Positions 1,947 through 34,084 of a DNA stretch of 34,084 bases are shown here, piece after piece. The notes beneath the pieces were generated by a model. It made no database searches and had not been told where the DNA came from. It saw only the letters and a program-made list of their open reading frames with translations. The stretch spans positions 1 through 34,084 of the IMG/VR virus record IMGVR_UViG_3300012922_000005; one strand, given 5' to 3'. The translations under genes were made by a program, and so were the position numbers. Origin of the DNA: a virus. Numbering within the stretch: the first letter of the stretch is position 1; each line of letters starts with the position of its first letter.

Positions 1947-2618
1947 ATGAAAATAATCTCTTTTATGAATCATAAAGGTGGCGTTGGAAAAACAACGCTT
2001 ACAGTCAATTTGGCTCGCGGGATTCAAAATGATGATGAGCCAAAATATATGATGTTAGTTGATGCTGACAGACAGGGCTCTTTGAGGGATTGGTATGAAT
2101 CTATGAATAGTTGCGACATTTCAGGGATGCGAGTTATAGGTGCAGACAGATATCAAACGCTTATAGGAAGCGTGTCAGTTGCTCGAGAATGCATGAGTTC
2201 TTATATGATGGTTGATACCCCCGGGGATGTTCATCAAATGCATGGGGCTGCTATTTCTATTTCAGATTTGATTATTATTCCGGTTAGACCATCCCCTTAT
2301 GATGTTTGGTCAACTCAAGACACGATCACATTAGTAAAAACTTGCATGGTTTCCAACCCTAAATTGAAAGCTATGTTTATTCTTAATCAATGCATTCCAA
2401 ACTCTAACATCTGCTCAGAAGCAATTAGCGCACTTTCAGAGCATCCAGAAATTAGGCTAGCAACGAATGTAATCTCTCACAGACTGTCCTTTACAAAGAC
2501 TGCTAGCGAAGGAAAAACCGTCTTTGAAACAAGAGATAAGTTAGCAATTAATGAAGTCGTAAATATTACAAAAGAAATATTAAATTATTTATGGGGTCAC
2601 GATGACAATCAGCAATAG
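1947..2618 (+). CDS. parA: ParA-family partition ATPase
   Basis: A 223-residue P-loop ATPase of the ParA/MinD superfamily that would segregate the circular prophage to daughter cells by ATP-dependent binding to the nucleoid. The deviant Walker A KGGVGKTT is at residues 10-17, the A' motif MLVDAD at 36-41 and Walker B MMVDTPG at 87-93. It has no N-terminal HTH, which fits the small type Ib (ParF-like) class. I chose the ATG at 1947 (AGGT seven bases upstream); an in-frame extension to 1866 would run through the promoter. Its 3' end overlaps the RHH gene by 17 bases, so the two are translationally coupled. A ParA on a phage genome strongly suggests plasmid-like lysogeny. Confidence 0.92.
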   Translation: MKIISFMNHKGGVGKTTLTVNLARGIQNDDEPKYMMLVDADRQGSLRDWYESMNSCDISGMRVIGADRYQTLIGSVSVARECMSSYMMVDTPGDVHQMHGAAISISDLIIIPVRPSPYDVWSTQDTITLVKTCMVSNPKLKAMFILNQCIPNSNICSEAISALSEHPEIRLATNVISHRLSFTKTASEGKTVFETRDKLAINEVVNITKEILNYLWGHDDNQQ

Positions 2619-2817
2619 AACCCGGCAAACCTTTAACCCAGGATTACAGGAGGCTGTAAATACAGATTTACAGCAAAAACTTACCAAGGTTACCGTTCAA
2701 ATTCCAAAGGAAGATTATCAAAAATTCAGGGTAAAGGCTTTGCAGGAAAGAATTAATGTTTGTGATTTATTTCGAGAATGGGTTAAGGCGTATGTTGATA
2801 GACCGTCCAAGGAGTAA
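2602..2817 (+). CDS. Ribbon-helix-helix partition partner (ParG-like)
   Basis: A 71-residue protein with a flexible polar N-terminus (residues 1-27) followed by a predicted beta strand KVTVQIP and two helices (to about 66), the ribbon-helix-helix pattern of ParG-type centromere-binding proteins and autorepressors. It overlaps parA and has GGGG before its ATG. By family knowledge it would bind repeats upstream of parA, and its flexible N-terminus would stimulate ParA. I see only a single short palindrome there, not an obvious iteron array. Assignment is by size, pattern and position. Confidence 0.75.
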   Translation: MTISNRTRQTFNPGLQEAVNTDLQQKLTKVTVQIPKEDYQKFRVKALQERINVCDLFREWVKAYVDRPSKE

Positions 2818-3207: not shown

Positions 3208-4125
3208 TTAATGTCTTAAACCTTCCTTCAAAGCTTTCAAAACTTTTAATCCATTCTCTAGATCATTTGTTGCGTCAATTTCTTGTTGCTTATATCTAGC
3301 TACAATCTCTTGAGCTGTTTCTATCGATCTCGCTTTAAAGTTAGTAGCGTAATCAACTTCTTTTTTCTTCAGTTCTTTTATTTCGTCTGTTGTGAAAGTC
3401 ATATTCCATGTTCCTTGTGATAAGCCTTTAACCATGGTGTAAACGAAGCCTATTTCATTTCTAGCTTCTTTTAGCCCTATCTGGGTAATAACATAGCAGG
3501 TTTGTATTTCTGTGAGCATCCAGGCCAAGCAGATTCGTTTAATCTCTGCTTCTGGATCGATTTTGAAGTCTTTTTCTTTTACAAATTTCTCAGAATTAAT
3601 GCGCTCTTTGTATTTAATCTTTCTAACTGGTGAAGATACATACTGAGTATAAGTAGAATTTAGATCTAGATTTGTAGAGAGTTTTATATTGTCAGACTCA
3701 ATGTCTGTTTTGACGGGTTTCAAATGTTGCATACATGACATTGTTGTTAAATAAGGGTTATGGCCAAAACCTTCCTTCTCATATAGGAGCGCTCCATCTT
3801 GTTTGTATCGCTTGTACCATCTCTCTATAGTTTTTGTGCTGATTCCGAGAGCTCTAGCTAAAGTGGCTTGGGTAACGCGCGAGAAGCAATCTTGATCTGT
3901 TCGTTTTAATATTTCATGCAATATAAGACGCCCGTTACCTTTATAACCATTCCTCTTTATGATCTCATTAATAACTTGGTGTCTTTGCTGCTTAAAACTT
4001 CCATATAATGGAATATACGCAATAGGTGTCGTATCCCAATAAGCATCAAAACTTTCTAGTGTATCTACATCGTTGTTAGAGGACTGGTTGACATGTGGCG
4101 TGCTATAATCGATACTTGCGAGCAT
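3208..4125 (-). CDS. Putative plasmid replication initiator (HTH)
   Basis: A 305-residue protein with a clear helix-turn-helix near residues 84-108 (VTQATLARALGISTKTIERW), a central polar linker and a lysine/glutamate-rich helical C-terminus. Size, HTH, position beside parA and the palindrome-rich 273-bp non-coding stretch upstream make a replication initiator the best guess. I cannot match it to a named Rep family from sequence alone; a HTH transcription regulator is the alternative. AAGGAAAG stands just before the ATG. The adjacent inverted repeats (4146-4194, 4223-4237) are candidate binding sites. Confidence 0.6.
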   Translation of the reverse strand: MLASIDYSTPHVNQSSNNDVDTLESFDAYWDTTPIAYIPLYGSFKQQRHQVINEIIKRNGYKGNGRLILHEILKRTDQDCFSRVTQATLARALGISTKTIERWYKRYKQDGALLYEKEGFGHNPYLTTMSCMQHLKPVKTDIESDNIKLSTNLDLNSTYTQYVSSPVRKIKYKERINSEKFVKEKDFKIDPEAEIKRICLAWMLTEIQTCYVITQIGLKEARNEIGFVYTMVKGLSQGTWNMTFTTDEIKELKKKEVDYATNFKARSIETAQEIVARYKQQEIDATNDLENGLKVLKALKEGLRH

Positions 4126-4398
4126 ATCTTTCCTTGAGAAAGTAGCTCGTGTTTTCTAAGTCAACTTTGGTCGGTCGGAAGTAGAAAGCACGAGTGAGAT
4201 TTAAATTGTTTTGACTATACTACGTTATTAATTAACGATCTAGTTTCTTTCTTATTCAGATAACATCAACCATATTTCCCATTTTTTAAAAATGATGTAT
4301 TCTAAATCTGCATTTGACTAACACTAAATGCGTTTCATTAGAGTTCCTGAATGGCTAGTTCGCCCCATCCTCAAGTGGGGCGAGTTGGTTGCAAAATG
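4126..4398. other. Palindrome-rich non-coding region, candidate oriV
   Basis: No convincing gene in 273 bp. It holds an imperfect inverted repeat CTCGTGTTTTCT / AGAAAGCACGAG (4146-4157 and 4183-4194, 11 of 12 paired), a palindrome CGTTATTAATTAACG (4223-4237), an AT palindrome CATTTTTTAAAAATG (4280-4294), an inverted GCATTT/AAATGC pair (4310-4315, 4326-4331) and a GC-rich hairpin CGCCCCA/TGGGGCG (4361-4367, 4376-4382). A 7-of-9 DnaA-box resemblance, TTATTCAGA, is at 4252. AT-rich palindromes next to a Rep-like gene are typical of a plasmid origin or rep operator; no tandem iterons are seen. On the minus strand TATAGT at about 4215 could be the -10 of rep. Confidence 0.45.
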
Positions 4399-4521
4399 TC
4401 ACCTACTCAACCTCTTCAACTTGAAAAATAATTGATAGGCCCCTATCAAAAATAACAATGATATACATCCAGATATAGCGCCGATGGAAATAATATCTAA
4501 CAGCATGTAATCACATCTCAT
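4399..4521 (-). CDS. Tiny membrane protein (40 aa)
   Basis: A 40-residue frame whose ATG overlaps the stop of the upstream gene (ATGA). It has one hydrophobic segment (about residues 9-32, IISIGAISGCISLLFL...) followed by a basic tail KLKRLSR, giving a predicted N-out/C-in single-pass topology. It is the last gene of the seven-gene overlapping operon. Whether it is translated is uncertain, but the overlap pattern matches its neighbours. An 18-bp palindrome lies inside it. Confidence 0.4.
   Translation of the reverse strand: MRCDYMLLDIISIGAISGCISLLFLIGAYQLFFKLKRLSR
4432..4449 (-). terminator. 18-bp palindrome, possible terminator or operator
   Basis: TTGATAGG-CC-CCTATCAA is a perfect palindrome. 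On the minus strand it is followed by TTATTTTT, so it may end the leftward operon coming from 5891. It lies inside the 40-aa frame, so either that frame is not used or the palindrome acts as an operator instead. Confidence 0.4.
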
Positions 4522-4745
4522 TTCTTATGCTCTACTATTTCAACTTCAAGCAAGTAGTGTTCGTCATATTCATCTTTCGCTTCTAATATAACTTTGTGAA
4601 TTGGAAAGTCTCTTAACTTCCAAAATGTATAGTTTCCATTCGGATGTTGAATATGAATGCCATCTCTAAGCGTGACTTTTACGCTTGCACTTACATCAAG
4701 AAAAGCCTCTATATCATTGCTTCGAATCGAGAAAGGCGCGCTCAT
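4518..4745 (-). CDS. Hypothetical protein (75 aa)
   Basis: A 75-residue soluble acidic protein with alternating strand-like segments (VKVTLRDGIHIQ, HYLLEVEIVE). It overlaps both neighbours by four bases (ATGA), so it is translated as part of the compact leftward operon. No recognised domain. Confidence 0.6.
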   Translation of the reverse strand: MSAPFSIRSNDIEAFLDVSASVKVTLRDGIHIQHPNGNYTFWKLRDFPIHKVILEAKDEYDEHYLLEVEIVEHKK

Positions 4746-5116
4746 TGTAAATTATCACTTGATTCAATTATCTTTTTAATTTTAAATCCCGGCCTCGACT
4801 TCCCATTTTCGAAAATATATTTACTCTCTTCAATTTTAGTAACCAATATCTTTATAAATTCATTATAATCAACATTCAATAGATTTTTCATTGTCACAAG
4901 ATAAGTCATAGCCAAAACATAGATAAATTCCCCCATATCTTTTTGTTCAGCAACAAGTTGATTCTTACCGGCCATTCCTAACCCATGTTCATGAAGATTT
5001 GTAATAACATCCCCTATGATGACCTTGTTGTCTCTAAAATGCGCAAAGCTAAATCCATTATCACCGCTTAATTTTAAAAGTTTTCTATATAATCTTTCAT
5101 GTTCATCTTTCATCAT
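4742..5116 (-). CDS. Hypothetical protein (124 aa)
   Basis: A 124-residue protein, N-terminally helical and charged, with a more hydrophobic middle (about residues 68-82, IYVLAMTYLVTM). It ends KIIESSDNLQ. I chose the ATG at 5116, nine bases after GAGG; another ATG at 5113 or 5125 is possible. It overlaps its upstream and downstream neighbours. No domain recognised; as the largest product of the microcin-like operon it could be an accessory or immunity factor, which is speculation. Confidence 0.6.
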   Translation of the reverse strand: MMKDEHERLYRKLLKLSGDNGFSFAHFRDNKVIIGDVITNLHEHGLGMAGKNQLVAEQKDMGEFIYVLAMTYLVTMKNLLNVDYNEFIKILVTKIEESKYIFENGKSRPGFKIKKIIESSDNLQ

Positions 5117-5297
5117 TTTTCGCATCCTCTGGAACTATAACGCCTCTATCTTCCATAATTTGTAACATTCTAATATTAAGCTCCATAGATTTTTTATTTA
5201 CTTCGAATTGTCTCTTGTCAGACTTGTTATACATAAATTCCCTAAATACAAACATAATGCATAATATAATGTATCCATAAATCCCATAATCACTCAT
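5103..5297 (-). CDS. Single-pass membrane protein (64 aa)
   Basis: A 64-residue protein with one N-terminal hydrophobic helix (about residues 4-20, YGIYGYIILCIMFVFREF) and a charged helical cytosolic tail. It lies directly after the double-glycine-leader peptide gene and overlaps the next gene. Size and topology would suit an immunity protein for a small membrane-active peptide, but no family match can be claimed. Confidence 0.55.
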   Translation of the reverse strand: MSDYGIYGYIILCIMFVFREFMYNKSDKRQFEVNKKSMELNIRMLQIMEDRGVIVPEDAKNDER

Positions 5298-5305
5298 AGT
5301 TAAGC

Positions 5306-5530
5306 CTATTGATTCTGAAACAATTCAGGGTGCATTATTTCTGCAATTCCTTGACCGCCCTCTTTGATAGTTGCGCCGCCCGCACCCGTAATTGCACCAG
5401 CCAAGGCCCCTGGAGGACCACCGACAAAGAACCCTACTATTGAGCCTATTAGGATAGAGCTTAAAAAATTAAAGAATTTTGGCTTTCCACCCGAAATTTC
5501 TAGAACTTCCATTTCACTAATTTCTCTCAT
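5306..5530 (-). CDS. Putative double-glycine-leader bacteriocin/microcin-like peptide
   Basis: A 74-residue precursor. Residues 1-15, MREISEMEVLEISGG, match the class II double-glycine leader pattern (hydrophobics at -4, -7, -12 and GG at -2/-1), as in the leaders of microcins V and L. Cleavage would release 59 residues: a short basic start (KPKFFNF), a hydrophobic helix, then a glycine-zipper-like stretch rich in G-x3-G spacing, and a polar tail HPELFQNQ without cysteine. The ATG at 5530 has GGAG six bases upstream; a TTG-initiated extension would spoil the leader. It overlaps a two-helix membrane gene upstream. No peptidase-type ABC exporter is in the window, so export would need the host. 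A glycine-zipper membrane protein with a chance GG is the alternative. Confidence 0.55.
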   Translation of the reverse strand: MREISEMEVLEISGGKPKFFNFLSSILIGSIVGFFVGGPPGALAGAITGAGGATIKEGGQGIAEIMHPELFQNQ

Positions 5531-5715
5531 TTGAATCTCCAAGTTGGTAATGAATCTCTCATAAAGTAAATAAATATAAAACTGAATAATGAACTAAAAA
5601 TAGCCATATTAAGAATATCGGCATCTCCGCCAATCAATCTATTAAATGTAAAGTAAAGGCTAAAATGTATTAAAAAAGTAATTAAGAAAAATAATCCTGA
5701 TTTTAAACTATTCAT
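5527..5715 (-). CDS. Two-helix membrane protein, candidate immunity protein (62 aa)
   Basis: A 62-residue hydrophobic protein with two predicted membrane helices (about residues 7-28 and 36-52) and a charged end (MRDSLPTWRFK). The ATG at 5715 has an excellent GGAGG five bases upstream; the in-frame ATG at 5727 lacks one. Its stop overlaps the start of the double-glycine peptide gene (ATGA). Small multi-helix membrane proteins next to class II bacteriocin genes usually give self-immunity, hence the guess. No family match. Confidence 0.55.
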   Translation of the reverse strand: MNSLKSGLFFLITFLIHFSLYFTFNRLIGGDADILNMAIFSSLFSFIFIYFMRDSLPTWRFK

Positions 5716-5891
5716 AATTTCCTCCATTCAATTAATGTCATTTTAGCTTTTGCTGCACATGCTACGTCAAACCATTCTGCTAATTTAATAGCATTGTCGT
5801 AAGCATCATCTTTAATATAATTATACTGTGATTCAGTCACCCTAATAGTAAATGCTTTTTCCTTAAATCTATTCTGTCTTTTCTTCGCCAT
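5712..5891 (-). CDS. Small basic RHH-like regulator (59 aa)
   Basis: A 59-residue protein: a lysine/arginine-rich N-terminus (MAKKRQNRFKEKA), the strand FTIRVTESQYNYIKDDA and a helix ending near AEWFDVA. This TIRVTE-type strand plus two helices resembles ribbon-helix-helix DNA-binding proteins and plasmid MobC-like accessory proteins. It is the first gene of the leftward operon and overlaps the next by four bases, so it is well placed to regulate its own divergent promoter region (5892-5963). Confidence 0.6.
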   Translation of the reverse strand: MAKKRQNRFKEKAFTIRVTESQYNYIKDDAYDNAIKLAEWFDVACAAKAKMTLIEWRKL

Positions 5892-5896
5892 ATGTA

Positions 5897-5925
5897 TTGC
5901 CTTTGCGTTTTGTTTGTAGTAAAAT
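5897..5925 (+). promoter_or_regulatory. Candidate early promoter of the recombination operon
   Basis: TTGCCT (5897-5902) and TAAAAT (5920-5925) are exactly 17 bases apart, 38 bases ahead of the first ATG of the rightward operon. The match is 9 of 12 to the sigma70 consensus. No equally good promoter is seen for the leftward operon in the same 72-bp gap. Confidence 0.55.
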
Positions 5926-5963
5926 TGTCTTGTTAGTCAGAGATTACACGAGGAACTATTGAA

Positions 5964-6110
5964 ATGCAACATGATGAATACTATTTCCCTGAACAGGATG
6001 ATATGCAACAATTTATAACATCGGATGAAGGCCGACGTTATGAAGAAGAAATGAGCGCTAGAGCTGATAAGATAATGAAAGGCGTTTTGGAATTAGGGTG
6101 GTTAAAATGA
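5964..6110 (+). CDS. Small hypothetical protein (48 aa)
   Basis: A 48-residue acidic, helix-rich protein (MQHDEYYFPEQDD...), first gene of the rightward early operon. AGGA is about ten bases upstream and its stop overlaps the next start (ATGA). No recognised domain. Confidence 0.55.
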   Translation: MQHDEYYFPEQDDMQQFITSDEGRRYEEEMSARADKIMKGVLELGWLK

Positions 6111-6409
6111 GTGAATTATCAGTAATACAGTCAACAGAAGAAGCTTTGAGGTTAATCTCAGAGCTTAAAAAAACTCGTAAAATGTTAAAAGATTTAAAAT
6201 CCCTTGAAGAAAAGCTTATTAGAAAGCTTGTTTCAGAGATGAAGAACCATGAAGTTTTGGTGAGCGAGGATGGTGAAGAATTGATAACTTATAAATTTAC
6301 ATCCGATGTAAGTTTCTTTGATTCAAAGCGGCTTTTGCTGGATAATCCTGAAATATATGAATCATATTTAGATAAGCGACCAGGCAGTAGAAGGTTTGTG
6401 ATAAAATGA
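6107..6409 (+). CDS. Coiled-coil protein resembling the tail domain of YqaJ-type exonucleases (100 aa)
   Basis: A 100-residue protein: an N-terminal coiled coil (about residues 8-48) and a C-terminal module with the pattern ITYKFTSDVSFFDSKRLL ... PEIYESYLDKRPGSRRFVIK. This pattern recalls the region after the nuclease domain in YqaJ-family phage exonucleases; the nuclease itself is absent. I chose the ATG at 6107, overlapping the previous stop; a GTG start at 6098 is also open. Its place two genes before Erf suggests a recombination helper. The resemblance is from memory of the family and needs a profile search. Confidence 0.6.
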   Translation: MSELSVIQSTEEALRLISELKKTRKMLKDLKSLEEKLIRKLVSEMKNHEVLVSEDGEELITYKFTSDVSFFDSKRLLLDNPEIYESYLDKRPGSRRFVIK

Positions 6410-8309: not shown

Positions 8310-8402
8310 ATGGATAAAGAGATTTTAATGTCTTTAGGGCTTATCATGGGGATGATAGTAATCGTTTATATATTCGGCGGCTTTAATCCCTTTCAGCCGT
8401 GA
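8310..8402 (+). CDS. Possible 30-aa membrane peptide
   Basis: A 30-residue frame that starts one base after the previous stop and consists mostly of one hydrophobic helix (IMGMIVIVYIFGG). Its end contains the hairpin of a candidate terminator. Such short membrane peptides occur in phages, but this could be chance. Confidence 0.3.
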   Translation: MDKEILMSLGLIMGMIVIVYIFGGFNPFQP

Positions 8403-8407
8403 TTTTT
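8377..8407 (+). terminator. Candidate intrinsic terminator of the early operon
   Basis: CGGCT (8378-8382) pairs with AGCCG (8395-8399), extendable by a G-T pair, and a T5 run follows at 8403-8407. It lies where the rightward operon meets the leftward late region, the expected place for termination. The stem is short. Confidence 0.45.
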
Positions 8408-8602
8408 ATCTATTTTATGTTTAGGTGATATAAACTCAACATCCTTTTCTGCTTGTTCTTGTGTAAAATGGAATTGTTGCTCTAAAGTATTTATTTCAAT
8501 TGATTCCATTTCTTCTTCTACGATATTGTCATCGCCCAGAAAATATACAGATGTCCATGAAATCATCACACAAGAAACTACTATTGCTATCACAATACCC
8601 AC
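8393..8602 (-). CDS. Single-pass membrane protein, lysis-cassette candidate (69 aa)
   Basis: A 69-residue protein starting with a membrane helix (about residues 1-20, GIVIAIVVSCVMISWTSVYF) and continuing into an acidic, helical tail. I prefer the GTG at 8602, with GGAG seven bases upstream; a longer TTG-initiated frame reaches 8626. It follows the lysozyme-like gene directly, so a holin, pinholin or inner-membrane spanin is plausible by position; the single helix and long soluble tail fit a spanin or regulator better than a classic holin. Not proven. Confidence 0.5.
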   Translation of the reverse strand: MGIVIAIVVSCVMISWTSVYFLGDDNIVEEEMESIEINTLEQQFHFTQEQAEKDVEFISPKHKIDKNHG

Positions 8603-8618
8603 TCTTTTTGCTCCATTA

Positions 8619-9089
8619 CTAAGCAACTTCTTCGCCTAATTCTTTGTAAATTTTAATTGTTCTTTCTATTGTTGCTTTTCCACCAGCATTATAATACTTA
8701 ACATAATATTCCGCTAATCTAGGGATATCATCTTCTCTAGGTAATGCTTGCGCTTCTCTTCTATAGACTATACGCGCAATTAATGTAGCATATCTGAGAT
8801 TATGCAGTAATGCGTCAGGACTAGGATGAACAGTATAAAAACAAGCAGATAAAATTCTCTCATTTAACTTCAAATTTAAAGGGTGATTAAGCGTATTAAT
8901 TATAGATTTTAAAGTTAATAGTTCAATTTGATAGATACCAAGCGCAGGCCCATCAATTTGTTTAAAAAATATTCCCTGTGTTTCCGCACATATTGTCATC
9001 ACAAGCAAATTTTCGGCAGCTTGTGACCACAAATCAGTAATTTGTAATACTGGTTTTATTATGTAATCACGAAGCTGCTTTATTAACAT
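8619..9089 (-). CDS. Putative phage endolysin (lysozyme/transglycosylase-like)
   Basis: A 156-residue protein. Residues 34-56 hold CAETQG, then GPALGIYQIE, the E-x2-G and G-(I/P)-(Y/F)-Q-(M/I)-E pattern of a goose-lysozyme/SLT-like phage family in which the first Glu (here E36) is the probable catalytic acid. The C-terminal part YATLIARIVYRR ... RLAEYYVKYYNAGGKATIE matches the same family as I remember it. There is no signal peptide, so it would need a holin. Its position at the end of the late region, followed by a membrane protein, fits a lysis cassette. A virion-associated muralytic enzyme is the alternative. Confidence 0.65.
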   Translation of the reverse strand: MLIKQLRDYIIKPVLQITDLWSQAAENLLVMTICAETQGIFFKQIDGPALGIYQIELLTLKSIINTLNHPLNLKLNERILSACFYTVHPSPDALLHNLRYATLIARIVYRREAQALPREDDIPRLAEYYVKYYNAGGKATIERTIKIYKELGEEVA

Positions 9090-10185: not shown

Positions 10186-10869
10186 TTATTGTGCTTTTAA
10201 AAATACAATGCATGAAGCAGATGTATTATGCAGTTTTGATGTTAAAGATCCAACCGCCGGCAATGTTGAACTATAGGTAAAAGTTTGTGACCATCCACCT
10301 TGAAAATTCCCTGCTGCCCCTAGTTCTGAATTAGGTATACCTAATCCTCTTCCGCCTATATTTCTTCCTGTTGACTGCCCTTGTAAAGCAATAAAATTAG
10401 TTGTTGCAGAAGATGAAAAACCTAACCAATAAATTCCCGCTGCTAAAATTATTGGTGATGAAAAAGTATAAGAACCAAAAGTCGTAGTTGATGCAGTTAT
10501 ATTTGTACTATTAGAATTTGTTACTGGGGACCCAGTGGGCGCACCATTTCCGCTATCATTATAAATCCCCAAAACAAATGTGCCAGCAGCAACGGTACCA
10601 ACAAGCATTCCAATGTCAGTATAAGTTGTACTTTTTGTTACAAAAAAAGGTGTAAACCATAAAGTTCCTGTCGCCGTGCTCGTGCCAGCTGTCCCAACGG
10701 TATTAAGTCCGCAAAATATACTATTACTTGGATACCAATTACCACTTATTGCATTAAAAAAAGGACCATTTCCTGAAGGTATTCCAGCTCTTATTGCACT
10801 TAAGGTCGTTTGACCGATCAAGTTTGGCGGTGAAGCCGAAGTGTCAAAAATTTGTGTATAATCTGACAT
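10186..10869 (-). CDS. Tail-associated paralog 3 of 3 (227 aa)
   Basis: A 227-residue beta-rich protein, low in charge and rich in Ser, Thr, Gly and Asn. It shares with the two genes upstream the start MSDYT-IFD, LIGQTTLSAI, the block GNWYPS, the block FVTK-TTYTDIG, GIYNDSGN-APTGSP and the end TYSSTLPAVGSL...FLKAQ. The blocks are conserved while the connecting segments differ, as expected for surface-exposed virion proteins. Its ATG shares one base with the previous stop (TAATG). Probably an accessory tail or receptor-binding component; no enzyme motif. Confidence 0.7.
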   Translation of the reverse strand: MSDYTQIFDTSASPPNLIGQTTLSAIRAGIPSGNGPFFNAISGNWYPSNSIFCGLNTVGTAGTSTATGTLWFTPFFVTKSTTYTDIGMLVGTVAAGTFVLGIYNDSGNGAPTGSPVTNSNSTNITASTTTFGSYTFSSPIILAAGIYWLGFSSSATTNFIALQGQSTGRNIGGRGLGIPNSELGAAGNFQGGWSQTFTYSSTLPAVGSLTSKLHNTSASCIVFLKAQ

Positions 10870-11546
10870 TATTGCGCCTTCAAAAATATATATGCGTAAC
10901 CTGTACCATTTGCCGTTTGAGCCACTAAAGAACCGACGGCAGGCAATGTTGAACTATAGGTAAAAGTTTGCTTCCATCCCACTAGACAATCACCTAGATT
11001 AGAAGTGGTTGGGGTTGCATTTACGCCCATCCCAACGCCAGCACTTGGGCAATTGTTTGTCGGAGATGGCCCAACAGGAGCGAAAGTAGTTGAGATAGCA
11101 TAAGCAGGCCAATAAATACCAGGAGCTAAAGTTACAGGACTTGAAAATGTAAAAGATGTAAATGTATTTCCTCCAGCAGGAGTTAAATCTCCGCTATTTG
11201 TTCCTGCTATGGGAGAGCCTGTTGGAGCATTTGCACCACTATCATTATAAAGACCCAAAACAACCGTTCCTGTTGAGCTTACGGGCAAAATACCTATATC
11301 TGTATAAATAGTAGTTTTTGTTACATAAAAAGGAAAAAATCTTAATGAAGCCGCGCCAAAACTAGCATTAGAATGCAAACTTATGCTATAAAAAACTGAA
11401 CCGCTAGGATACCAATTCCCACTTATGGCGCCTACTCCAACTGTTCCATTAGAACTATTACTATTTTGAATTGCAGATAAAGTTGTTTGCCCAATTAACT
11501 TTGTTGGGCTTACTGTATCATCAAATAACCATGTATAATCTGACAT
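10869..11546 (-). CDS. Tail-associated paralog 2 of 3 (225 aa)
   Basis: The middle copy of the tandem triplication, 225 residues, with the same block order as its neighbours (MSDYT-LFD, LIGQTTLSAI, GNWYPSGS, FYVTKTTIYTDIG, GLYNDSGANAPTGSPI, YSSTLPAVGSL, FLKAQ). The variable parts, for example the region after TFSSPVTLAPGIYW, differ strongly from the other copies. It is linked to both neighbours by a TAATG stop/start overlap in an otherwise matching junction, consistent with gene duplication by unequal exchange followed by divergence. Confidence 0.7.
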   Translation of the reverse strand: MSDYTWLFDDTVSPTKLIGQTTLSAIQNSNSSNGTVGVGAISGNWYPSGSVFYSISLHSNASFGAASLRFFPFYVTKTTIYTDIGILPVSSTGTVVLGLYNDSGANAPTGSPIAGTNSGDLTPAGGNTFTSFTFSSPVTLAPGIYWPAYAISTTFAPVGPSPTNNCPSAGVGMGVNATPTTSNLGDCLVGWKQTFTYSSTLPAVGSLVAQTANGTGYAYIFLKAQ

Positions 11547-12232
11547 TATTGCGCCTTCAAATAAACATATTTATCGCCCGCAGATGCCGCCCCTGTTGCG
11601 GTTAGAGATCCCACGGATGGTAAAGTTGCACTATAAACAAAAGCTTGTGACCATCCCGCCTGAATAGTTTGGAGAAGTGTTATAGTCGGTGTACCTGGAA
11701 CACCTAAACCTCTTCCAAATATAGGATTTGCTGTTGCCCCATTTATAGTTGGACCAATTGAAGCATTAGTTGCAGAACATGAATAAGCACACCAATAGAC
11801 ACCTGGTATTAATTGTATTGGAGAAGAGAAAGTATATTTTGAAAGCGTAGAAGCTACATTTGTTATGCTAGTACTGTTTGAATTAGTTATTGGTGAACCC
11901 GTTGGCGCGCTATTTCCGCTATCATTATATAATCCCAGAACGATTGTTCCAGCAGCAGTCGATGAAATTAAAAATCCTATATCAGTATATGTTGTTGTCT
12001 TTGTCACGTAAAAAGGATGAAAATATAAAGTACCCGTTGCAACGGAATTAGTTATATCATCTAAAGAATAATTTCCATAATAACTGCCAGAGGGATACCA
12101 ATTTGTGCTTATTCCGCCAACACCAACTCCTCCACCACCACCGAATCCAGTAGTGATGGCCGATAATGTCGTTTGCCCTATCAAATTAATAGGGCTAACA
12201 GAATCATCGAAAATTTGAGTATAATCTGACAT
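11546..12232 (-). CDS. Tail-associated paralog 1 of 3 (228 aa)
   Basis: First copy of the triplicated family in transcription order, 228 residues. Shared blocks: MSDYTQIFDDS, LIGQTTLSAI, NWYPSGS, FYVTKTTTYTDIGF, VLGLYNDSGNSAPTGSPI, and an end in YLKAQ. It is glycine-rich near residue 30. No collagen or enzyme motif. It starts on the stop of the 206-aa gene (TAATG). Confidence 0.7.
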   Translation of the reverse strand: MSDYTQIFDDSVSPINLIGQTTLSAITTGFGGGGGVGVGGISTNWYPSGSYYGNYSLDDITNSVATGTLYFHPFYVTKTTTYTDIGFLISSTAAGTIVLGLYNDSGNSAPTGSPITNSNSTSITNVASTLSKYTFSSPIQLIPGVYWCAYSCSATNASIGPTINGATANPIFGRGLGVPGTPTITLLQTIQAGWSQAFVYSATLPSVGSLTATGAASAGDKYVYLKAQ

Positions 12233-24881: not shown

Positions 24882-25721
24882 CTAGGGATCTTTGAGTAAA
24901 GATATATTAATATCTGCACTTAAAGGAACTGCATTGCTACCAGCTGCGACTGTTCCAAGAAACAAAGGCGCATCACTTGTATTGCATAATTTAACAACAT
25001 CACCTGCATTTAGCAGAATAATTACTACACTAGTAGTTTGATTTGCGTGCTGTTCTGGACTAATCGTCATATCGCCAAATGTTGATGGAGGAATAATCAA
25101 ACCATTTACAAATAAGCTCATCGTCCATATTTTTAAAGGACTAAAAACAGGATTCAACGAACCAGATACGGCTTTATAAATTCGATACCACCCTTTCTTC
25201 AGGATTTTTATTTCGCCAGTGCTTGCAGCCAAGCTCACGTCAAATACAGCGGTTGCTACTTGTATATTTTCCAACAAAGCAGTGCCGCCTTCTAGGTTAA
25301 TACCAGGCGAAGCTATCAATGTTTGTGGAAGAACAGAATAAACTTCCATAAATTCTACTGGACAATGACATTCGCATTCGACACAATCACCTTTAGGGCC
25401 TTGCTCACCCTGTGGACCCTGTGTACCCTGTGGACCCATTTGACCTTGATTGCCAATTGGACCCTCATTTCCTTGTGGACCTTGAGGGCCAACATCACCA
25501 TGTGGACCCATAGGACCAGATTGTCCTGCTGAGCCTTGTGGACCCATTGGGCCAGCGGGACCAGGCGCACCTGTGGCTCCCGTAGAACCCATTGGACCAG
25601 ATGGTCCTCGTGGGCCTTCTCCGCCTGCATCACCTTTAGGACCCATCGGACCTACGGGACCAGTTTGACCCATAGGACCAGGACAACATTTACAACCATG
25701 ATCGTCTTGTTCGCCAACCAT
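24882..25721 (-). CDS. Collagen-like repeat protein with beta-rich C-terminal domain
   Basis: A 279-residue protein. Residues 15-113 are 33 uninterrupted Gly-X-Y triplets, expected to form a collagen-like triple helix. The repeat is flanked by cysteine clusters (C10, C12, C13; C113, C116, C118, C120) that could lock the trimer. The C-terminal 155 residues are beta-rich and look like a BclA/C1q-type trimer head. It is placed between the head fibre-like gene and the tail adaptor, so it is probably a head or tail fibre that binds surfaces. It has its own GGAGG, an upstream hairpin and a downstream terminator, like an inserted accessory gene. Confidence 0.88.
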
Positions 25722-33827: not shown

Positions 33828-33967
33828 TTGTCTTCCTTAACTATGACTCTATATTCTTCATTGCATTTCAAACAAGCTGGCCGCCAGCATGGCTGAGGAC
33901 ATGTTATCATGTAGCCGACTAAGCAACCAAGCAATCCGAGAAATATAACTAAATAAACCCTATCCAT
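33824..33967 (-). CDS. Small membrane protein with Cys cluster (47 aa)
   Basis: A 47-residue frame with one N-terminal membrane helix (about residues 4-22, VYLVIFLGLLGCLVGYMIT) and then CPQPCWRPACLKC, a cysteine-rich knuckle, before a charged tail. Its start codon lies inside the terminal repeat and its stop overlaps the next gene (ATGA). On the circle it is the first gene after the late promoter. Function unknown. Confidence 0.5.
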   Translation of the reverse strand: MDRVYLVIFLGLLGCLVGYMITCPQPCWRPACLKCNEEYRVIVKEDK

Positions 33968-34084
33968 GTCATCGCTTTCCCTTTGTCCTTGCAGCTTTGC
34001 TTTAAAAGATAAAACTAATTGATTCTATTAGTATTTCATCGAAATGTCATCGGAATCTCTGATAAGAGTTAAAGCACTTAAAAA
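33962..34084. repeat. Terminal direct repeat, right copy (circular junction)
   Basis: An exact copy of positions 1-123. It carries the start of the 47-aa gene and the late promoter on the minus strand. It is most likely the overlap of a circular assembly; a real terminal redundancy cannot be excluded. Confidence 0.9.
34022..34050 (-). promoter_or_regulatory. Candidate sigma70 late promoter (right copy)
   Basis: The same ATGACA (34045-34050), 17 bases and TAGAAT (34022-34027) as in the left repeat, here directly upstream of the 47-aa gene, VRR-NUC, terminase and the structural operon on the minus strand. Confidence 0.6.

Follow-up and report, generated by a model that had tools for sequence, protein, structure and literature searches.

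The 34,084-bp stretch of viral DNA analysed here (the window) encodes a short protein at positions 5306-5530, for which the original prediction, made from the letters alone, had proposed a microcin-like peptide with a double-glycine leader carried by a phage-plasmid, with an intracellular glycine-zipper protein as the alternative. The locus raises the question of whether this product leaves the cell as a bacteriocin, leaves it in some other role or stays within the membrane and, if it is exported, which exporter would serve.

Results

Structure of the putative precursor

The open reading frame lies on the minus strand, running from an ATG at 5530 to a stop at 5306 (74 aa; Table 1), and the plus strand over the same interval is broken by stops; coordinates and frame had been described correctly, and the strand had not been given. 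The ribosome-binding site that had been assigned to the leader start is present as a GGAG 6 nt before the ATG at 5530. This ATG shares the sequence ATGA with the TGA that ends the upstream gene, and an alternative in-frame TTG at 5542 would make the product merely four residues longer. The precursor consists of a leader, MREISEMEVLEISGG, followed by a 59-residue mature part, KPKFFNFLSSILIGSIVGFFVGGPPGALAGAITGAGGATIKEGGQGIAEIMHPELFQNQ, with cleavage expected after Gly15, and the full double-glycine pattern is found in the leader (I-12, S-11, E-8, V-7, I-4, G-2 and G-1). The mature part is, as had been described, glycine-rich and free of cysteine (20% Gly; pI 6.8), has six glycines at i+4 spacing (29, 33, 37, 41, 45 and 49) and is modelled as one helix across residues 16-66 (single-sequence AlphaFold2).

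The proposed check against microcin profiles gave a divided result, as precursor residues 2-51 match Pfam Bacteriocin_IIc (PF10439) with a marginal pass (27.8 bits versus a cut-off of 27.1), while the match to Pfam MccV (PF17508), for which the alignment begins at precursor residue 1, is weak and below cut-off (16.6 versus 27 bits). The Pfam search also returned a weak glycine-zipper family match for the precursor. There was no convincing match for the peptide in NCBIfam or PHROGs, and tblastn and pattern searches found no direct homologues among phage records, plasmid records or IMG/VR.

Table 1. Coordinates of the features discussed, in the window unless a related phage is named
Feature	Position	Strand	Basis
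ParA-family partition ATPase	1947-2618	+	NCBIfam ParA_partition E 3.9e-50; Pfam AAA_31 above cut-off
71-aa partner of ParA	2602-2817	+	Weak ribbon-helix-helix: ORF56/RHH_1 matches below cut-off
305-aa helix-turn-helix protein	3208-4125	-	HTH_23 above cut-off; weak PHROG replication-initiator matches
Three further small genes (127, 75 and 40 aa), same tightly packed block	4399-5125	-	ORFs
64-aa protein, 8 nt downstream of peptide gene	5103-5297	-	ORF; no family in Pfam, NCBIfam, PHROGs
Predicted precursor of double-glycine-leader peptide (74 aa)	5306-5530	-	ORF and RBS; Pfam Bacteriocin_IIc
59-residue mature part, predicted hydrophobic helix	5306-5485	-	Glycine spacing; single-sequence AlphaFold2
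15-residue predicted double-glycine leader MREISEMEVLEISGG	5486-5530	-	Leader rule; leader HMM rank first
66-aa two-helix membrane protein, candidate immunity	5527-5727	-	Hydrophobic stretches, AlphaFold2
Shine-Dalgarno GGAG, 6 nt 5' of peptide ATG	5537-5540	-	Direct sequence reading
59-aa small protein, first gene of block	5712-5891	-	Pfam NikA-like (ribbon-helix-helix) E 0.055, below cut-off
G001 leader-GG peptide: MKPLSIDEIRQIQGG then 52 residues	L006:16710-16913		
G005 leader-GG peptide: MRLMNKIEINEVSGG then 47 residues	L018:1839-2027		

Leader pattern and chance expectation

A strict leader rule was applied that combined a hydrophobic residue at -12, D/E/Q at -8, hydrophobic residues at -7 and -4, GG, a Shine-Dalgarno sequence, a start 12-26 codons before the end of the GG and a tail of 20-110 aa. 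There were exactly three matches in 1.0 Mb comprising the window and its podovirus relatives, namely the peptides of the window and of two phages of its clade (G001 and G005, below), and none in 2.04 Mb of Markov sequence or when 1.0 Mb of the real sequence was reversed. A further 0.83 Mb from terminase relatives added one distinct match, present twice, with a leader and tail that are not bacteriocin-like. A leader HMM derived from six chromosomal GG-peptide leaders ranked the peptides of the window and of the related phages G001 and G005 first to third among 11,688 frames (15.8, 14.9 and 12.3 bits; next 9.5). The ranking of the window and G001 peptides is in part circular, as most of the source loci were fetched with the profile of these two; that of the G005 peptide is independent of the profile. 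A class II microcin is expected to carry an N-terminal signal with GG or GA at its end and to have a mature peptide under 10 kDa; by the leader rule and the first rank in the HMM the precursor has such a signal, and its mature peptide is 5.96 kDa.

Leader peptides in related phages

Relatives of the window were found through portal and capsid searches of IMG/VR, and two near-complete genomes among them, G001 (34,200 bp) and G005 (33,239 bp), carry leader-GG peptides with divergent mature parts. The double-glycine leader, which had been claimed for the window peptide, is strengthened by the same leader pattern in these two phages. Similarity between the window and G001 peptides is above that of shuffles (mature-part score reached by 0.8%, full-length score by 0.1%), and the G005 mature part opens with a similar hydrophobic stretch that has no zipper inside it. 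The i+4 glycine run shrinks from six in the window to three in G001 and to two, outside the hydrophobic stretch, in G005, with the leader kept throughout. Against Bacteriocin_IIc the G001 peptide scores 18.2 bits, below cut-off, and the G005 peptide has no match. The three peptide genes occupy non-equivalent places in their genomes, as expected of cargo, and the relative G004 (30.4 kb, near-complete, possibly incomplete) has no convincing GG peptide even with a relaxed rule.

Chromosomal counterparts and C39 exporters

A profile built from the window and G001 peptides alone was run on 399 Pseudomonadota genomes, among which six matches begin at the leader and fall in short frames; matches to the zipper alone are mostly in long unrelated frames. 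Four of the six leader-inclusive matches have a C39-ABC exporter and a membrane-fusion protein no more than a few kb away; with G306 and G374 nearly identical, these four count as three distinct loci. The C39, ABC membrane and ATPase domains were confirmed by Pfam in two of those exporters. The G051 locus was the only leader-inclusive match in a second sample, drawn from the class of G306 (385 genomes). A further exporter-linked GG locus (L212), reached through the Pfam family rather than the phage profile, has hydrophobic ORFs of 67 and 89 aa between the peptide and the exporter. As a separate observation, a second GG-leader peptide occurs near a C39 exporter at L207:10276-10545 and L208:9034-9303 (both minus strand), and its mature part is very His- and Asn-rich (GHGHNNNHQHHNNN...), perhaps metal-binding.

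These distributions bear on the possibility that the window product is an intracellular or inner-membrane glycine-zipper protein (holin-like, a small membrane toxin or an envelope protein) in which the GG is coincidental. The hydrophobic helix with its long GxxxG run and the weak glycine-zipper match are what such a protein would have, and many small membrane proteins are encoded by phages, yet the relatives share the leader and not the zipper, the strict rule is unmatched in the control sequences, and the profile finds the zipper alone in long unrelated frames and the short leader-inclusive frames mostly at exporters; for a holin-like protein, moreover, probable lysis genes are located elsewhere (8393-9089). 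Homologues that keep the zipper and have lost the GG or the leader had been named in the original prediction as the outcome that would speak against a leader peptide, and the opposite was seen: the relatives retain the leader with a zipper that has shrunk or disappeared, the reverse of what an intracellular glycine-zipper protein predicts. An intracellular product is therefore distinctly unlikely, and the reading as an exported double-glycine peptide is well supported at the level of sequence.

A family search of the window found no C39 peptidase, ABC transporter or membrane-fusion family on the element itself, so that the exporter of the host would have to serve. A C39 domain is present in 147 of 299 sampled Pseudomonadota genomes, in some cases in frames too short for ABC exporters, and a C39 exporter in the host is plausible.

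The carrier element and its host

The window is a 34-kb podovirus-type element with PHROGs matches to a head protein, portal and terminase. An exact direct terminal repeat of 123 bp (1-123 and 33962-34084) suggests that the contig is circular, or else reflects an assembler overlap of 123 bp. The ParA_partition match reaches 170 bits, below the cut-off of 180, and the 305-aa helix-turn-helix protein is probably a replication initiator or regulator. The window also encodes ERF, SSB and an AlpA-type regulator, and no integrase families were detected in it. The label of phage-plasmid given originally fits this combination of virion genes, a ParA family member, a small ribbon-helix-helix-like partner, apparent circularity and no detected integrase.

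The portal has distant kin in podoviruses of Methylophilales, Pelagibacter and Vibrio, the best plasmid matches of ParA are at about 35-40% in mixed Pseudomonadota, and the terminase family is present in 20 of 399 Pseudomonadota genomes. A search of genome contigs with the major capsid protein gave no match, and the sole portal alignment match, a Magnetococcales contig considered as a host lead, was rejected as too distant (21% identity). PADLOC matches of the other window proteins are weak.

Several further features of these genomes were observed. A 156-aa protein of phrog_3108, a family without an assigned function, is conserved in G004 and G007; it is overlapped by a 77-aa membrane protein (8393-9089, minus strand), and the two probably form a lysis module. 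A collagen-like Gly-X-Y repeat protein (24882-25721, minus strand; Pfam Collagen) lies between the capsid and tail genes, has a C-terminal domain common to G001 and is probably a virion appendage. Three tandem paralogues of about 225-228 aa starting with MSDYT(Q/W)(I/L)FD (10186-12232, minus strand) are probably duplicated tail or receptor-binding proteins. In a related phage, a 197-aa ORF resembling, by eye, an HNH-type homing endonuclease (L003:2720-3313, minus strand) is inserted on the opposite strand beside the terminase gene.

Neighbouring genes and candidate immunity

The 66-aa protein encoded immediately upstream of the peptide has two hydrophobic stretches, is modelled as a helical hairpin (AlphaFold2, pLDDT 79) and has no family match in Pfam, NCBIfam or PHROGs; translationally coupled to the peptide, it is a candidate immunity protein. 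The 59-aa weakly NikA-like protein is a possible regulator, and a scan of 4300-6200 for promoters and terminators found sites no more numerous than in shuffles. G001 has a small hydrophobic ORF downstream of its peptide, coupled through ATGA, within which the G001 record ends, and G005 has a 53-aa two-helix ORF convergent on the peptide gene. No homology could be detected among the three immunity candidates (window, G001 and G005). As these differ from one another and the window genome has many small membrane proteins, a membrane-protein neighbour is weak evidence for immunity.

The same arrangement, in which an element resembling a plasmid has coupled genes for two small hydrophobic proteins, could also be expected of a conventional toxin-antitoxin pair, in which the peptide would be the toxin, the 66-aa membrane protein its partner, and the plasmid would be stabilised without export. 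Such a pair is highly unlikely here, since it leaves unexplained why the leader is conserved, with its GG in one fixed position, across three phages, and the two proteins match no toxin-antitoxin family in Pfam or NCBIfam.

Discussion

Class II microcins have a five-component definition, and only about ten have been verified experimentally, mostly from E. coli (PMC9746304). The window peptide is like those of the MccV type in its 15-residue leader ending in GG, its size below 10 kDa, its glycine-rich hydrophobic mature part, its Bacteriocin_IIc match above cut-off, its coupled small membrane protein and the lack of modification genes (no modification-enzyme families were found in the window), and is unlike them in that the C39 exporter and membrane-fusion protein are absent from the element and the carrier is a podovirus-type phage-plasmid. 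With such a precursor and a candidate immunity gene, the phage peptide may work like a class II microcin, in which case, under the five-component definition, the exporter, fusion protein and outer-membrane channel would have to come from the host.

Leader evidence supports export and not toxicity, and an exported double-glycine peptide could instead act on the envelope of its own carrier, by superinfection exclusion or an altered membrane, or serve as a signal between carriers. The mature parts of the phage peptides are divergent and not cationic, and the GG-leader Nap peptides of Neisseria take part in autolysis within the population that produces them (PMC11798529). The zipper-rich hydrophobic mature part and the Bacteriocin_IIc match nevertheless favour a membrane-active bacteriocin, and in the case of a signal the 59-aa hydrophobic chain would be long and no recognisable receptor/regulator pair adjoins the peptide gene (Pfam, NCBIfam, PHROGs). 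A non-killing role is accordingly considered unlikely.

The explanation considered probable is that the gene is a class II microcin-like cargo of a circular, ParA-bearing phage-plasmid, with host C39 export, membrane toxicity and phage-encoded immunity. In cells that retain the element, a host C39-peptidase ABC exporter would cut after Gly15 and, together with a membrane-fusion protein and an outer-membrane channel, would release the 59-residue glycine-zipper peptide. The peptide would most likely attack related cells without the element by inserting into their inner membrane, and the coupled 66-aa two-helix membrane protein would most likely shield the carrier, such that competitors would be killed and cells losing the element would be lost, a benefit akin to 'plasmid addiction'. 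We infer each of these steps, from host-dependent cleavage and export through membrane toxicity to immunity and the fitness benefit. More tentatively, a whole lineage of podovirus-type phage-plasmids may carry exchangeable leader-GG genes, with the warhead and immunity coming from the element and export from host C39 systems, by which rivals would be killed and loss of the element punished.

Phage-borne bacteriocins as such are already known. Sublancin (sunA) is a bacteriocin of the temperate Bacillus prophage SPβ with a leader cut during export and phage-encoded immunity, and has been proposed to stabilise the prophage (PMC6391423); the window peptide is likewise a leader-bearing, putative bacteriocin encoded by a phage, whereas sublancin is Gram-positive, glycosylated and accompanied by its own exporter, SunT, and modification genes. 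Telocins are bacteriocins of Klebsiella telomere phages (PMC12042878) and share with the present case phage-plasmid-type phages, different bacteriocins in related genomes and immunity partners (a candidate in the window), but they resemble pore-forming or peptidoglycan-degrading protein bacteriocins, whereas the window product would be a short leader-type peptide. The Nap peptides of Neisseria, for which a role in autolysis has been reported, are GG peptides on mobile DNA, and NapC resembles an Inoviridae phage protein (PMC11798529); they are similar in being Gram-negative-type GG peptides on mobile DNA with a candidate immunity gene nearby, while the nap island has its own C39 peptidase and channel and the window element has no exporter. 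A literature search returned no report of leader-GG peptides on exporter-less podovirus-type phage-plasmids. What appears to be new is the type of phage, its lack of an exporter and the fact that differing leader-GG peptides recur in one phage lineage.

If this reading is correct, phages would disseminate peptide weapons for secretion as inexpensive cargo of one or two genes that depends on host exporters. Viral metagenomes would then represent an untapped source of microcin-like peptides, which searches demanding an adjacent exporter would overlook.
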